NCBI GenBank assembly: GCA_023334545.1
Contig: JAADVB010000006.1
Span: 108,051-172,050, forward strand
Direction: 5' to 3'
DNA length: 64,000 nt
Source: Salisapilia sapeloensis
Taxonomy: Eukaryota; Oomycota; Peronosporomycetes; Peronosporales; Salisapiliaceae
Shown: piece after piece, positions 6,153-16,319 of the stretch
How the letters are laid out: every line of letters starts with the position of its first letter
How positions within the stretch are numbered: the stretch's first letter is position 1
Notes under the pieces: generated by a model
Told to the model about the DNA's origin: nothing
What the model saw: only the letters and a program-made list of their open reading frames with translations
The model's database searches: none
Program-made: the position numbers and the translations under genes

Positions 6153-9100
6153 ATGGAGGAACCCAACCAGCTAGAGCAAGATGCGAGTTTCATGGACAAG
6201 TACAGTCGGCAAATTGGTGCCTTTGGTATGGAAACCATGGCCAAGGTACATTTCATCTTTCTTACTTTTATTCTTTTATCCGAATGGATAAAATCATTTG
6301 TATGGAATTATATCGATGCTCATGTCCGACCTCTTGTCTCTGTAGCTCGTAAAGCTGCGTGTACTCATCGTTGGTATGCGTGGTGTCGGTGTTGAATGTG
6401 CTAAGAACCTCATTCTCGCTGGTCCTGGAGCTATCACACTCTACGATGGTGAGTCGTTTGCTTCTAAGTGTTTGAATGGTCCTTTTGACGCTGTACACTT
6501 GTAGACGGCTTAACCGAAATGAAGGATCTTGGAACCAACTTTTTCCTGACGGAACAAGACGTTGGTCGACCTCGTGCGGATGCTGTCGCCCACAAGGTTC
6601 GTCTACTTGGCTAAAATTATTATTAGACAGTTTTTACTTCTTCTTTCTATTTAGTTGGCCGAACTGAACAAGATGGTGTCGCTATCGACACACCAGGGTG
6701 AATTGACGGAAGACGTGGTAAAGTCTCATAATGTCGTCGTGTTCACAAACACGTCTCGACAGGAATTGCTGCGTTGGAACCGCTTCTGTCGACAGCAGAG
6801 TCCTCAGATCGGGTTCATCATGTGTGATGTTCGTGGTGCCATGGGCTCTGCCTTCACGGACTTTGGCGACAAGTTCATGTGCCACGACGCAACGGGTGAA
6901 GCACCGATCACACGCATCATCACGGACATTACGAACGATTCTGACGGAGTCGTCACGCTCCTCGGTCCAGACGAGAATGGTCGAATGCACGAAATGCCAG
7001 ACTCGGACCACGACGGATGGGTTGAAATCAGTGATGTCGACGGTATGCGTCTCGAATCGGACTCTTCCCAGTCGATCAACTCGAGCGGTCCTCGACGCAT
7101 TCAATTCGCGACTAAGAAGATGTTCCGGAATGGAAAGCAAGTCGATGTCTTCGATCCGTATCGACTGAAGATCGGAGACACATCGGCATTTACACCTTAT
7201 GAAGGTGGTGGTGTCTTGACACAATACAAGAAACCGTTCGCGATGGAATTCCAGTCGCTAGAGCAGATGCTCGCGAATCCCGTGCCACCAGGTGACTTTG
7301 GTCTCATGTTCACGGATGGCGCCAAGTTCGGACGAGCAGAGCAGCTGCATGTCGCTGTGTGGAGTATCATGGAGTTTGAAAACCGATACGGGTATCTCCC
7401 TGAGCCGCATAACGAACAACACGCGTCCGAAGTGCTAGACATTGCCAAGGGCGGCATCCAGCACTTGTCAGACACGACGCGATCCACCGGCCAGGAGCCT
7501 TTCCGTGTAGAAGAACTTGATGAAGGTGTGGTGAAGAACGCTGCCTTGTACTGCGCTATCGAGCTACAGCCGCTCGCAGCCTTCTACGGCGGCATCGTCG
7601 CGCAGGAAGTGGTTAAGTTCACGGGTAAGTTCACGCCGATGAAGCAATGGCTTCACTTGGATGCTTTCGAAGTGCTTCCGGAGAAACCTCCGACGGATGC
7701 ACAGCCGATGCAGTCTCGTTATGACCATACGATTACCATGTTCGGTCGTGATTTCCAGCAAAAGATGGGAGACGTTCATACGTTCCTCGTCGGATGTGGA
7801 GCCCTCGGTTGTGAATACCTTAAGAACTTTGCCATGCTCGGTCTTGCGTGTGGTCCGAATGGGCTCGTGACGGTCACTGATAACGATCGTATTGAAGTGA
7901 GTAACTTGAACCGTCAATTCCTCTTCCGAGAGCATAATGTCGGGCAACCTAAATCCGTTGCTGCGACGAATGCCGTGAAGCAGATGAACGCTGGGCTACG
8001 TGTTAAGGCACTGGAACAGCTCGTGGCGACGCATACTGAGTCGACTTTCAATGATGATTTCTGGACGAGCTTGGATGTCGTGACGAATGCACTGGATAAT
8101 GTCAAAGCACGCAAGTACGTCGATGGCAAGTGTGTCTTCTACAAGCTGCCGTTGCTAGAGAGCGGGACGTTAGGAACGAAATGTAACGTCCAAGTGGTGA
8201 TCCCGTACAAGACGCAGAGCTACTCGGACGGCCCGGCAGATGCAGATGATGATAACATTCCTATGTGCACGCTCCGAAACTTTCCGTCATTGATCGAACA
8301 CTGCATCGAGTGGGCTCGAGCGCAGTTCACGGACTGGTTCACGGCGCCTATTGCCGATGCGCAGAACTTTGTTCAGGATCGACAGGGGTACTTGGACAAG
8401 GTGCGCAAGTCAACGGTTGAAAATAAGGATCCGAGGACGGCGATGCAGGCGACGGTCATGGAGTTGGATCGGTTGCGACAGCTAAAGAAGACGTTGCATA
8501 TCGCCAAGGGCATTACGTTTGATACGTGCATGCAAATGGCGGTTGACTTGTTGCGTTCGAATTTCCGTGATCGTATCTTGCAGTTGATTCATAACTTTCC
8601 TGAAGATCACATGACGGATGCTGGCGAGAGGTTCTGGTCCGGTGCCAAGCGTTTCCCGACTGCGATTGATAAATTCGATCCGGAAGATCCGCTGCATCTC
8701 GAGTTCGTTCGATCTGTTGCGAATATCTTGGCTGTATGCTACGGTCTGTATCCGCCACCGGAAGACAAGTTGGTACCAGAAGACTCTGAGTGGCGACAGC
8801 CGACGACGTACGAGAAGTTTGCCGACGTGGCGTCGTTCCCAGAGTGGACACCTTCGGATGAGAAGATTGCAGCGGATACAGAAGAGCTGAAGAAGATGGA
8901 AGAGGAGAAATTAAGCAGCTCTTCGGATTCCGAGAAGAGAGAGTTGGAGAAATTGCTCAAGGAACTCGAAGCAGTCGATCTACAGGACGTCGCGTTCGAG
9001 CCAGCTGACTTTGAGAAGGATCAGGACATGAACTTCCACATTGACTTTGTCTACGCTGCTGCCAATTTACGCGCGAGTAACTACAAGATCCGTCAAGCGT

Positions 9101-9921: not shown

Positions 9922-11795
9922 ATGGATGACATCGAGGACATAATTAATGAAGAGGAGTTGCAGCGGTCGGCTGTGGAGCTTTCCAGGACACCGATGGTAC
10001 CTCCAAAAGCGGCTGCCAAGGTGGAGGTAGAAGAAGATGCCTCTGAGGTCGGTAAGAGTGTTCCTGGCACGGAAGCGATTTGGTACAGTCTGATGGATAT
10101 GCCGTGTATTATCTTTTACTGATAAGCACATAGGCTCAAGACGTTTGGCTGCTCGCATAACGTCAGTGATAGCGAGTATATGCAAGGGGTTTTAGCGAGC
10201 TATGGTTATCGTTTTACAACGAACCCATCGGATGCCCAATTATGGTATAATACCATTTTCTATACGAAGCGTACATGCATCTAATACGTTATATGGACAG
10301 GCTTTTAAATAGCTGCACGGTCAAAGATCCATCTGAAGCAGCGTTCATGCATCTCGTGACCAAAGCCAAGAATCAGGGCAAAGGCATTGTTGTCGCAGGC
10401 TGTGTACCGCAGGCAGATCGACAAATTAAAGGATTGGAAGGCGTTAGTATCGTCGGTATCCAGCAAGTGGACCGTGTCGTGGAAGTGGTGGAAGAGACTT
10501 TAAAAGGACATACAGTTCGCTTATTGTCTCGATCTGGACTACCAAAGCTAGATTTGCCTAAAATTCGGAAAAACCCGAGTGTAGAAATCATTCCGCTAAG
10601 CACTGGATGTCTAGGTGCCTGCACCTACTGTCGAACACGCCATGCTCGTGGGAAATTAGGTAGCTACGCACCGGAAGCCATTGTCCAGAGAGCGCAAAGT
10701 GTCATTGACGAAGGTGTGACGGAGATTTGGTTGTCTAGTGAAGACACTGGAGCGTACGGCTTGGACATTGGGACCACTCTCCCGGAGCTCTTGTGGAAGA
10801 TCATTGACGTTCTGCCGGATGGAGTCATGCTACGCGTGGGTATGACGAATCCTCCGTACATTCTAGACCACTTGGACGCCATTGCGCAGGTGCTTAACCA
10901 TCCAAGTGTGTACGCTTTCCTCCATGTCCCGGTACAATCCGGAAGCAATGAAGTGTTGACGAACATGTATCGAGAGTACACGGTAGAAGAGTTTAGTCAA
11001 GTAGCAGACTACCTTTTAGCTCATGTTCCGAAGATGACACTTGCGACGGATATCATCTGTGGATTCCCAGGTGAGACGGAAGAGCAGTTTGAAGAGACGA
11101 TGCAACTCGTGGAAAAGTATCGTTTCCATATTATGAACATCTCGCAATTCTACCCTCGACCAGGCACACCTGCTGCCAAGATGAAGCGCGTACCGACGCA
11201 AGTCGTGAAGAATCGTAGTCGTCGATTGACAAAGCTTTTTGAAACGTTCGATCCGTATCCTTACTTTGTCAGTACGACGCAGAAAGTGTGGGTGAATACA
11301 GAGACGTCGGACGATGGGAAGTACACGGTCGGACATACAAAAAACTTTACAAAGGTCTTGATGCAGAGAGATGACTCGCTCATCGGGTGCTCAGCTCAAG
11401 TGAAAATCACGAGCGCTTCGAGGTTCCACATCAGTGGTGAAGTTGTCTCCCGATCGGAACCACCAACGAGGGCTGCGTGTGTCGTCCGAGATGAAATCCG
11501 GACGCATGGTCGAGACTCTCAAAAGAACAAAGTTCCAGTGAAAGTCGAGTCCAAGTCGACGGATGAGCTTTCGAATGACTGTTGTGGAGATGATTGTTGT
11601 GGAAGTTGCGATAGTCAACCAGCACAAGAGGATGTGAAGAAGCCTTCGACTGCGTCTAGTTGGATACAAAAGGCAAGTATCAAATGTCAGGAAGTTTGGA
11701 ACGACAAGGTGGCTTTAGCTGCTTTCGCGACAGTCGTGGCATCTACTACGCTAGTGACTATTCGAATGTTCCAACTAAGTCGTTCGAGCAGTTAA
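9922..11795 (+). CDS. CDKAL1: Threonylcarbamoyladenosine tRNA methylthiotransferase, CDKAL1 type
   Basis: Radical-SAM enzyme adding a methylthio group to t6A37 of tRNA-Lys(UUU). Exons 9922-10082, 10134-10244 and 10301-11795 (introns 51 and 56 bp), 588 aa. The N-terminus MDDIEDIINEEE resembles the human protein. The UPF0004 domain has Cys ligands in TFGCSHNVSD, LLNSCTVKDP and VVAGCVPQ; the radical-SAM cluster motif is CLGACTYCRTRHARG (Cx3Cx2C). The TRAM-like domain precedes a C-terminal hydrophobic tail (VALAAFATVVASTTLVTI), which in CDKAL1 anchors the enzyme in the ER membrane. Just before the anchor is a dense cysteine cluster (NDCCGDDCCGSCDSQ) I do not know from the animal protein. Splice junctions restore AIWLKTFGC and LWLLNSC, so the model is well supported. 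Confidence 0.95.
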
Positions 11796-13324: not shown

Positions 13325-14698
13325 TTAATTCTTTTCTCTGGCTCGATGTCTCTTTGTCAGCCGAACATTTACTTTATCTATCGCATCGGTTTTCATCGAC
13401 GGACTGTTCTCTGGGCCGCTGGTGTTCGTATCCATTGTAGCGAGCGCTTTTCGCTTCTTCGGGCTGCTATTCGCATGAGCTTTCTCCTCAAGAGCTTTGA
13501 TCTGGGACTGCATCATCGCTTCTTTAGCTCGGAAGGCCGCCTTGAGATCGGCAAGCTCCTGTTCAAGATCAGATACCTTGTTTTCCTTTTCCTCCAGTTT
13601 TTCGCTGAAAGCTTCTGCTAAGGTCTGTGTGACAGCTGATCGAAGGTTTCCCTCCGAAAGACTCTTGTGGATGTACTGCTCTGTTGCATTGTGCAGAGCA
13701 CTTAACGCAACGGAACTAACGCCCAATGAGAATTGCAATACATTGCGGAAGAGCTCGAGGAAAGCTGGTCGAGAAATCAAGTACTCGTTTCGTCTGTCCT
13801 CTTTGGATAGCAAGTCTTGGACTGCATCTTCATCATTAAGTTGGAAAAGACCTTGGAATTCAGTCCAAAGGTCTTCTTCTTCCATATCGGCTGCTGATTG
13901 TTCCTGGACAATATCAGTCGGTTCTTCCGGCTCATCACAGTCCGACAGATCGCCTTGGCCTGGAAGGGAGTCCATGAAGTCATCTTCAGTGCTTTCAGTA
14001 GAAACGGATAAGAGTTGCTCGTCCACCACATCTTGAGCAGATGATAATGAGTGGAGTAAAGCATCCCTAGATTCCTCGACTGCATCCTCCATCTTGTCAT
14101 CTTGTCCATCGTCGTCACTAAAGTCACTGTCATTCGACTCGTCGTCACTGTCTCCGAACCAAGACCACTCGCTTTCTTCATCTTGAACGTTTTCAACTTC
14201 TCCAGTTCTAGCTTGCCAGTTCTCGTAATTGCGGACGAAATCTGTCTTGGCGTACCGAGAAGCAGGCTCATTATCCGGCTCACCATTACTCTCTTGCCAC
14301 TGGTTATATATCAACGGAAGCTCCACCATCTCCGTCACATGATACAGTGTCTCTCGTCCACCACGTTGAATGGCACACATATCGTCGAAGCCATAGAGTT
14401 GAATGCCTTGAAGTCGACAAGCGCGAATAACATCATCAAGCGTAATGTGTGTCCTACTTCCATGTTGTGCCAGGACCAGCAGCGCCTGCACCAACTCCTG
14501 AATAAACGCCACAAGATGCTTTCTCGTACAAGTTGCCGTTGCTGCACAACTTTGGCGGAATCCAGCTCGGAGGTGGAATTTACGCATGAGCATATCAGGA
14601 AGTACCTTTTCGACCTCTCTCTGTCCATATTCACTTTCCTCTGCTACTTTCCGATTCGCATACACATCTCGTTGTCGCACGACATACCTCTCCATCAT
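13325..14698 (-). CDS. Histone-fold (H4/TAF6-like) protein with acidic middle and coiled-coil tail
   Basis: Single exon; first ATG at 14698 (MMERYVVRQRDVY), 457 aa. Residues about 36-104 read as a histone fold close to histone H4 and TAF6: MLMRKFHLRAGF (helix 1), RKHLVAFIQELVQALLVLAQH (long helix 2), THITLDDV (loop 2 strand), then IRACRLQGIQLYGF, matching the H4 ending DVVYALKRQGRTLYGF. It is far too divergent and long to be core H4. Residues about 165-300 are strongly acidic (DSDDESNDSDFSDDDGQDD), about 370-420 form a coiled coil (EKLEEKENKVSDLEQELADLKAAF) and the end is basic, nuclear-signal-like (SPKKRKALA, KRHRAREKN). Candidates are a TFIID/SAGA subunit, a CENP-T-like kinetochore protein or a chromatin factor; none is proven. 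It shares its promoter with the Ask1-like gene. Confidence 0.8.
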   Translation of the reverse strand: MMERYVVRQRDVYANRKVAEESEYGQREVEKVLPDMLMRKFHLRAGFRQSCAATATCTRKHLVAFIQELVQALLVLAQHGSRTHITLDDVIRACRLQGIQLYGFDDMCAIQRGGRETLYHVTEMVELPLIYNQWQESNGEPDNEPASRYAKTDFVRNYENWQARTGEVENVQDEESEWSWFGDSDDESNDSDFSDDDGQDDKMEDAVEESRDALLHSLSSAQDVVDEQLLSVSTESTEDDFMDSLPGQGDLSDCDEPEEPTDIVQEQSAADMEEEDLWTEFQGLFQLNDEDAVQDLLSKEDRRNEYLISRPAFLELFRNVLQFSLGVSSVALSALHNATEQYIHKSLSEGNLRSAVTQTLAEAFSEKLEEKENKVSDLEQELADLKAAFRAKEAMMQSQIKALEEKAHANSSPKKRKALATMDTNTSGPENSPSMKTDAIDKVNVRLTKRHRAREKN

Positions 14699-14857
14699 CT
14701 TCCAAGCAAAAGTCAAACTGAAGGCTTTCAAACTTTTTGGCGCGATATGTCCATTTTAATTATGTGCCATCTATCTTGTAAGAAGTATATAGTAGGTATA
14801 TTTTTATGATACAGCTTTAAGCGGGAAACTTATCGACCGGAACGGACCAGTAGGAAA
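14699..14857. promoter_or_regulatory. Shared bidirectional promoter with two E2F-type sites
   Basis: The 159 bp between the start codons of the histone-fold and Ask1-like genes contain TTTGGCGC at 14736-14743 and GCGGGAAA (reverse TTTCCCGC) at 14821-14828. Both fit the E2F/DP consensus TTTSSCGC exactly, one near each gene. E2F sites drive G1/S genes in animals, plants and algae; a cell-cycle role here is inference. Confidence 0.55.
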
Positions 14858-16319
14858 ATGGAGGATGACGATTTAGACCAGCGAATTACGTTCTTGCTAC
14901 AGGAGATCGATGGTAACTTGTCTGCTGCACATCAAGCGGCGACACAGGTCTTTAGTAGCGTCCGACGGCATCACCAAGTGCTACGACAGATCCACTCGGC
15001 GACGCAGATCTGGCAGCCTCTTTTCGATGCCTGCAGAGGTCGTCAGCCCCCTCTACGTAGGCCTACGATGACACCGAGCAAGTATCCACACAGGACGTCT
15101 GCCGTCCATGTGAATAGCAATGCCGTGGAAGACGCGACGCCGGATGATTTAGACGGCACGTCTTTCGTACCGAATGCCGATGGCTTTAAAACCACCAAAT
15201 TACGCACGAGTGTGAATCAGAGCAATAGCGAGAGTGCAAATTCAAGTGCTGAGAGTGCAAAACTACCCAAGACGATGACACCGATCTTGCCAAAGAGTCC
15301 TGCTGGTAGACGTGCAAGACAGCAGCAGAACGAGTCCTCGACTTCGAACATTTTACATCATAATTGGGGCTCATTCTTGCGCACGGACGTTATTGATGTA
15401 CTTTTACCTACTACATTTCGTTATGTATGGAACTAATACGCTGCGGTAGGCTCAAGCAGCTACGCATACGGTCGGATCAGAGATTAGTAGTGTCGAGCAA
15501 GCGAGTCCTGGCGTCAATGTGAATCTGTCGGAAGTCGGAGCGTTTGAGCTGACACCGCATGACAAGTCTCGTCGTGCTGGTTCCCAGCCTGTTGCTTCGA
15601 ATGCAGACACGTCCAAGTCACCGAATAGGCAGAGTATGTCGCCACGAGTACGAATGGACGGATCGCATCGAAAGCGACAGAGACGCCTATCGGACGATCC
15701 TTCGACGCCGAAGAAGCGACATACGATGGGCAGAACAGCTTCACCGAATTTACGTCGAAAGTATGGCGCCGCACAGCAGGCGACGCCACCGAGATTCCAT
15801 AAAGCGAGGATGTCTGCACCAGAGCAGAATTCGACCAGTACAGACGCGAATGTCGAGATGACGTCACCTCTGCTTCGAACGACATTGAAAGGGATGGGGA
15901 GGAATACGCCATTGTCGAACCGAATCGCCGGTGCGACGTATGACGCCGGGTCTGCGTCGCAAGAGAGTAGGCTACAAGAGTACGACTCTTCCTTTTCTAC
16001 AGGCATGCCGCCTCCAGAGTTTACCTTGTCTCAATTCCCACCTTCGTTCCAGGTACATTGATGCATTATCTTAAAGAGATCTAGTAGCTCATGCATGACA
16101 TAGCAAGGGAAGAGTGCAGTGGCCTTGTCGACGTTGTATAGCAAGTTCCAGGGCAATGACGATGCATCTCGACCTGCTTTGTCCGTTCCGGAACTGATCG
16201 AGTCGATGCCGGATGAAGGAGAAGAGAAGATTGAGATCATGCTTGACTTGCTCGTCTCGCGGCGCTTCTTGCGTGCTTTTACGGTCGAAGGACGAATGTA
16301 CTGGCAAGCGTCTGTATGA
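14858..16319 (+). CDS. Ask1-like DASH/Dam1 kinetochore subunit with a winged-helix-like C-terminus
   Basis: Exons 14858-15397, 15450-16052 and 16104-16319 (introns 52 and 51 bp), 452 aa. The N-terminal 60 residues, DLDQRITFLLQEIDGNLSAA ... ATQIWQPLFDA, match the Ask1 family core (LDQxITxxLQEIDxNLSxxH...FWxxFFEA). In fungi Ask1 is part of the DASH/Dam1 ring coupling kinetochores to microtubules. Residues about 70-380 are Ser/Thr/Pro-rich with many SP and TP sites (ATPDD, MTPILPKSPAG, DDPSTPKKR, MSPRVR, TASPNLRR), as expected for CDK and Aurora phosphorylation. The last 70 residues, VPELIESMPDEGEEKIEIML and RAFTVEGRMYWQ, look like a small winged-helix fold, which fungal Ask1 lacks; it recalls SKA1-type or other wHTH modules. 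Family assignment rests on the N-terminus only. Confidence 0.8.

Follow-up and report, generated by a model that had tools for sequence, protein, structure and literature searches.

A divergent oomycete protein with an H4-like and a probable H3-like histone fold encoded head-to-head with the DASH subunit Ask1

A 64,000-nt stretch of the Salisapilia sapeloensis genome (JAADVB010000006.1; hereafter the window, in which all positions are given) contains a divergent pair of genes. The minus-strand member (13325..14698) is an intronless open frame for a protein of 457 amino acids that combines two histone folds in one polypeptide, an H4-like fold and an H3-like segment consisting of α1 and α2 only; the plus-strand member encodes the DASH subunit Ask1. 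As described in the initial annotation of this DNA, the start codons, at 14698 (-) and 14858 (+), are separated by 159 bp (14699..14857, 37% G+C), and this shared promoter carries two exact matches to the E2F-type motif TTTSSCGC: TTTGGCGC on the plus strand (14736..14743), 37 bp before the start codon of the histone-fold gene, and TTTCCCGC on the minus strand (GCGGGAAA on the plus strand; 14821..14828), 29 bp before that of Ask1. The homologs of the minus-strand protein agree better with an ATG at 14695, which would widen the gap to 162 bp. The product is probably an H4-H3-like double histone-fold protein of oomycetes that forms a pseudodimer in cis, is made together with Ask1 under E2F-type control and serves as a cell-cycle chromatin scaffold.

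The H4-like fold (HFD1, residues 23–104; 14387..14632, minus strand, as for all segments of this protein) matches the H4 chains of the PDB with an E-value of 2.2e-5 as a single sequence and of about 1e-8 as a profile. In hhalign comparisons, it scores 51.4 with H4, 37.9 with TAF6 and at most 22.0 with the other profiles, and the H4 score is equalled by none of 300 column permutations; the AF2 model places helices at residues 35–44, 52–79 and 87–96. The second, H3-like segment (HFD2, residues 301–350; 13649..13798) yields a best E-value of only 0.096 against the PDB, with the best 60 of the 108 matches being of the H3 or CENP-A type (one is named only ‘histone domain-containing protein'). Its hhalign score with H3 is 24.9, compared with 13.2 or less for the others (8.2 for TAF9), and again none of 300 permutations equals it; AF2 helices span residues 310–321 and 329–349. 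The H4/TAF6-like histone fold originally assigned to this protein holds for the N-terminus; a second, H3-like segment was not mentioned then.

Between the two folds lies a strongly acidic linker (residues 161–300; 13799..14218) with a net charge of -45, and HFD2 is followed by a long predicted helix, possibly a coiled coil (residues 351–410; 13469..13648), which recurs in the AF2 model of the G. polare homolog, and by a basic tail (residues 411–457; 13328..13468) with a charge of +7. This charge pattern extends to the family: over the 19 sequences of alignment A1, the linker has a net charge of -28 to -46 and the tail one of 0 to +12, while HFD1, evaluated in the 17 rows that span it fully, ranges from +1 to +8. 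Alignment A2 consists of 16 of these sequences (P0008, P0011 and P0016 are left out); P0043 and P0044 stand outside A1, and P0043 is also outside A3. Immediately after HFD1, a GGRE-type β hairpin (residues 105–126; 14321–14386) resembles the hairpin that follows the TAF6 fold.

Pairing of HFD1 and HFD2 in cis is suggested by the predicted models of the window protein and of the G. polare homolog, both of which align over both folds onto single-chain histone dimers, with 7n8n_A and 9cvt_C as the top VIA-align rows. A competing explanation accepts the H4-like fold alone: the H3-like stretch would be no more than two ordinary helices next to a coiled coil, and HFD1 would pair in trans, for example, with H3 or CenH3. 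Several observations weigh on this side: the single-sequence evidence for HFD2 is weak, a complete H3 α1-α2-α3 with loop 2 is found in neither AF2 model and, in place of a normal α3, α2 of HFD2 passes into the long helix in both. The H3-specific profile score above all 300 permutations and the alignment of both models over both folds with single-chain dimers nevertheless make a lone H4-like fold rather unlikely. The DSSP strings of both models hint at a circularly permuted H3, in which a strand and a helix at residues 284–298 of the window protein would supply loop 2 and α3. This idea is rejected: the H3 score does not improve when the segment is included, and equal or better scores arise in 55 of 200 shuffles.

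The arginines that enter the DNA minor groove in the nucleosome are absent from the family (among sequences in which the position is occupied, none of 17 has arginine at H4 R45 and none of 18 at H3 R83), and other basic positions are retained. The loss does not exclude DNA binding because the Marseilleviridae doublets also lack these arginines. With an H4-like fold and an H3-like α1-α2 module in one chain, separated by the long acidic linker and followed by the long helix and the basic tail, the protein could form an H4:H3-like pseudodimer. In the absence of the normal H3 loop 2 and α3, the usual H3-H3' four-helix bundle would not be expected, so that dimerization would probably involve the long helix, and DNA or other histones might be held in a manner unlike that of the nucleosome. 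The promoter shared with Ask1, with its two E2F-type sites, would lead to production of both proteins around G1/S, and the double histone-fold protein may then act as a histone-like scaffold in S phase or mitosis. The most likely role would be that of a cell-cycle chromatin scaffold, with a centromere role as one option among several.

The family is conserved among oomycetes. Protein database searches, in which the 7990–7993 candidates sharing the most words were scored, so that relatives outside the oomycetes may have been missed, detect at least 18 homologs, of which 11 have a named organism, in each case an oomycete, and seven are unnamed. In 17 of the 18, the alignment covers 73–99% of the protein (26% in the remaining one). 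A profile search adds two further homologs, one of them a run-on annotation. In the S. sapeloensis genome, the next matches have E-values of 0.066 and 0.88. None of the Pfam models scores above its cut-off with the protein (five families are listed at E-values up to 10).

Among known double histone folds, the closest parallels are the H4-H3 doublets of giant viruses (Melbournevirus and other Marseilleviridae, along with the H4-H3-like proteins of iridoviruses), in which an H4-like fold likewise precedes an H3-like one in a single chain; 7n8n_A and 9cvt_C, which head the alignments of both oomycete models, belong here. According to a 2022 review, the minor-groove arginines of the H4 and H3 loops are similarly not conserved in the Marseilleviridae doublet, and fused doublets had not been confirmed among eukaryotic histones (PMC9145170). 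The oomycete protein differs in that its folds lie ~200 strongly acidic residues apart, whereas the solved viral chains measure 172–197 residues in all, in that the normal H3 α3 is replaced by or merged into the long helix, in having a basic C-terminal tail and in being found in named oomycetes. None of 44 pattern matches in viral contigs encodes a relative.

For eukaryotes, a 2026 review of double histone folds lists Sos, ABTB2, SPT3 and the animal HSIH proteins, of which only SPT3 reaches protists broadly; Table 1 of that review gives protists SPT3 only, besides Sos in Capsaspora, and includes no oomycete case (PMC13088155). There, the folds of Sos and Cca3S are described as H2B/H2A-like, the HSIH examples given in detail are of the H2A/H2B types, and the HSIH proteins, at least 60% identical with histones, are single-chain double folds close to histones. 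The oomycete protein shares with Sos, ABTB2, SPT3 and HSIH the presence of two histone folds in a single chain but, compared with Sos and with HSIH as portrayed in the review (the HSIH proteins at large may include H4-H3 types), it has diverged much further, its folds resemble H4 and H3, and it has the acidic linker. Judged by titles, no paper was found on an oomycete H4-H3-like double histone-fold protein. The protein is best filed as a variant of the double histone fold; it lacks a tested feature of nucleosomal histones, of TAF6, of SPT3 and of CENP-T. If this is correct, the conserved oomycete chain with H4-like and H3-like parts, encoded by one uninterrupted frame free of introns, would add a divergent example from outside the animals and would bear on the origin of histone doublets.

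The identity of the plus-strand gene is confirmed at the sequence level as a genuine DASH Ask1, in agreement with the initial annotation. The N-terminus of its product matches PF08655 with 41.2 bits (cut-off 20.7; E-value 1.6e-10; domain at residues 5–57), which makes it a member of the DASH/Dam1 subunit family. The gene consists of three exons (14858..15397, 15450..16052 and 16104..16319, the last running to the stop codon) separated by GT-AG introns at 15398–15449 and 16053–16103, across both of which the frame is kept, for a total of 452 amino acids. Of at least 24 homologs, 21 are named oomycete proteins; PF08655 is present in 21 of the 24 found, and 17 of the 24 align over 99–100% of the spliced protein. 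Beyond the Pfam domain, the oomycete Ask1 proteins share, as judged by eye, the C-terminal segment LDTLVSRRLLRPFVVEGxMFWQ.

The partnership with Ask1 brings up the explanation that the double histone-fold protein is an oomycete inner-kinetochore component which stands in for CENP-T/CENP-W and works with the DASH ring. It is consistent with the divergent promoter and its two E2F-type sites, with the presence of CenH3 in the genome, as P. sojae also has according to PMC7082073, with the failure of CENP-T_C (PF15511) to match anything in the genome at 1e-3 (although this model might miss a CENP-T that has diverged strongly) and with the apparent linkage of the two genes. The double histone-fold and Ask1 genes are apparently on the same contig in three species of Peronosporaceae, as judged from the longest contig listed, which is the same for both proteins in Peronospora belbahrii (214,510 bases), Phytophthora sojae (11,587,142) and P. 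infestans (22,923,084). If the P. belbahrii genome is near 35 Mb, a shared contig is unlikely to result from chance in this species; the P. sojae and P. infestans cases are weak. The corresponding figures for P. nicotianae (79,960 and 23,190) are uninformative because the clusters pool strains. In Aphanomyces invadans, however, the two genes lie on different contigs (1,079,871 and 1,185,136; distant locus tags H310_08887 and H310_07539).

Other observations count against a kinetochore role. Genes that share a promoter may have unrelated products. In CENP-T, the histone fold is at the C-terminus and the partner resides on another chain; the oomycete protein resembles CENP-T/CENP-W in the proposed placement of a histone-fold pair at kinetochore chromatin but its H4-like fold is N-terminal and shares the chain with an H3-like segment. 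PF15511 is not among the five families listed for the protein. A histone fold is borne out, but the CENP-T-like identity that had been entertained at first is not supported. Neither exact nor relaxed E2F-type sites are seen in the fetched stretches of CenH3 and Ndc80, and for Dam1 there is no more than a near-match (TTTCGCGG, 19 bp upstream); hence, nothing points to an E2F module that covers kinetochore genes in general. Overall, a stand-in for CENP-T/CENP-W appears doubtful, and the more specific proposal that a divergent cellular H4-H3-type doublet, made with the DASH ring from the shared E2F promoter, replaces CENP-T/W as a non-nucleosomal centromere platform is distinctly improbable. For oomycete chromosome-segregation chromatin, the double histone-fold protein provides a concrete candidate. 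For CENP-C_C, nothing in the genome reaches 1e-3, and Duo1 reaches a value of 0.91 only, which is not counted. The CenH3 (CENP-A-like) gene (L041; G000:C16:43601-43993) has a longer loop 1 and is split by a presumed intron; the stretch fetched for it is free of E2F-type sites.

Less likely than a kinetochore component is a transcription subunit of the TFIID/SAGA type whose two histone folds pair in cis in the manner of SPT3. Separate genes of such types exist in the genome, one of the TAF6 type, with the TAF match located at G000:C46 and not at the double histone-fold gene, and one of the TFIID-18/SPT3 type (C223, the sole match region of PF02269). The five families listed for the protein include none of the TAF (PF02969), TAF6 C-terminal (HEAT) and TFIID-18kDa (PF02269) models, and HFD2 is unlike TAF9. 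Given the separate TAF6-type gene, a TAF6 identity is unlikely by these sequence comparisons, and both TAF6 and SPT3 are rejected as identities, other genes matching those families.

Under the favoured reading, a chromatin scaffold made together with Ask1, the 159-bp gap would be an S-phase promoter. That TTTSSCGC marks S-phase genes in S. sapeloensis is shown by the MCM genes of the same genome. A search yields eight MCM matches at seven places, all of which were fetched, and five of the seven genes (C428, C417, C326, C208 and C63) have an exact site 5–35 bp upstream of the likely ATG (start codons were assigned by reading, and C428 has a possible alternative ATG upstream of its site), whereas C103 has only a near-match (TTTGGCGG) and no site is seen in the fetched stretch of C298. 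Assuming 100 bp per promoter, five or more of seven would be expected by chance with a probability of about 1e-9. Genome-wide, the motif occurs 1681 times in 19.5 Mb, a modest excess over its reversed control (1223). At this density, the Poisson P of finding two within 159 bp is 9e-5. Since two sites exceed chance and MCM genes have similarly placed ones, the gap is likely an S-phase (E2F-type) promoter, as initially proposed, from which expression and E2F/DP binding are predicted. Six E2F/DP-domain matches are found on four contigs of the genome, and the E2F proteins of P. infestans target CGCCA-bearing motifs (PMC11267843). The weakest alternative, that both sites are chance matches in a small gap of a compact genome, draws on the lack of motif excess in the whole window (7 observed, 7.1 expected) and on the roughly 0.5 such pairs that ~6,000 gaps (a guessed number) would yield by chance, but is highly improbable: when the gap is shuffled with its dinucleotides preserved, only 3 of 20,000 versions reach two sites, and the positions agree with those in five of the seven MCM genes.

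Several additional features were noted. One of the MCM loci (G000:C417, L035:2440-2640) is another divergent pair, of MCM and an unidentified gene, and the gap has a palindromic E2F-type site, TTTGGCGCCAA. A locus with two E2F/DP-domain matches (G000:C343, L049) has TTTSSCGC sites of its own at 1435, 4496 and 4620, possibly reflecting autoregulation. The convergent gene downstream of the double histone-fold gene likely encodes, as judged by eye, an α/β hydrolase, and this neighbour is conserved elsewhere; in G. splendens, the run-on annotation P0043 extends, in antisense, into this same gene (43% identity over 118 residues). Farther away in the window, 10275–11795 (+) likely encodes, again by eye, a CDKAL1-like tRNA methylthiotransferase with a hydrophobic C-terminal segment.
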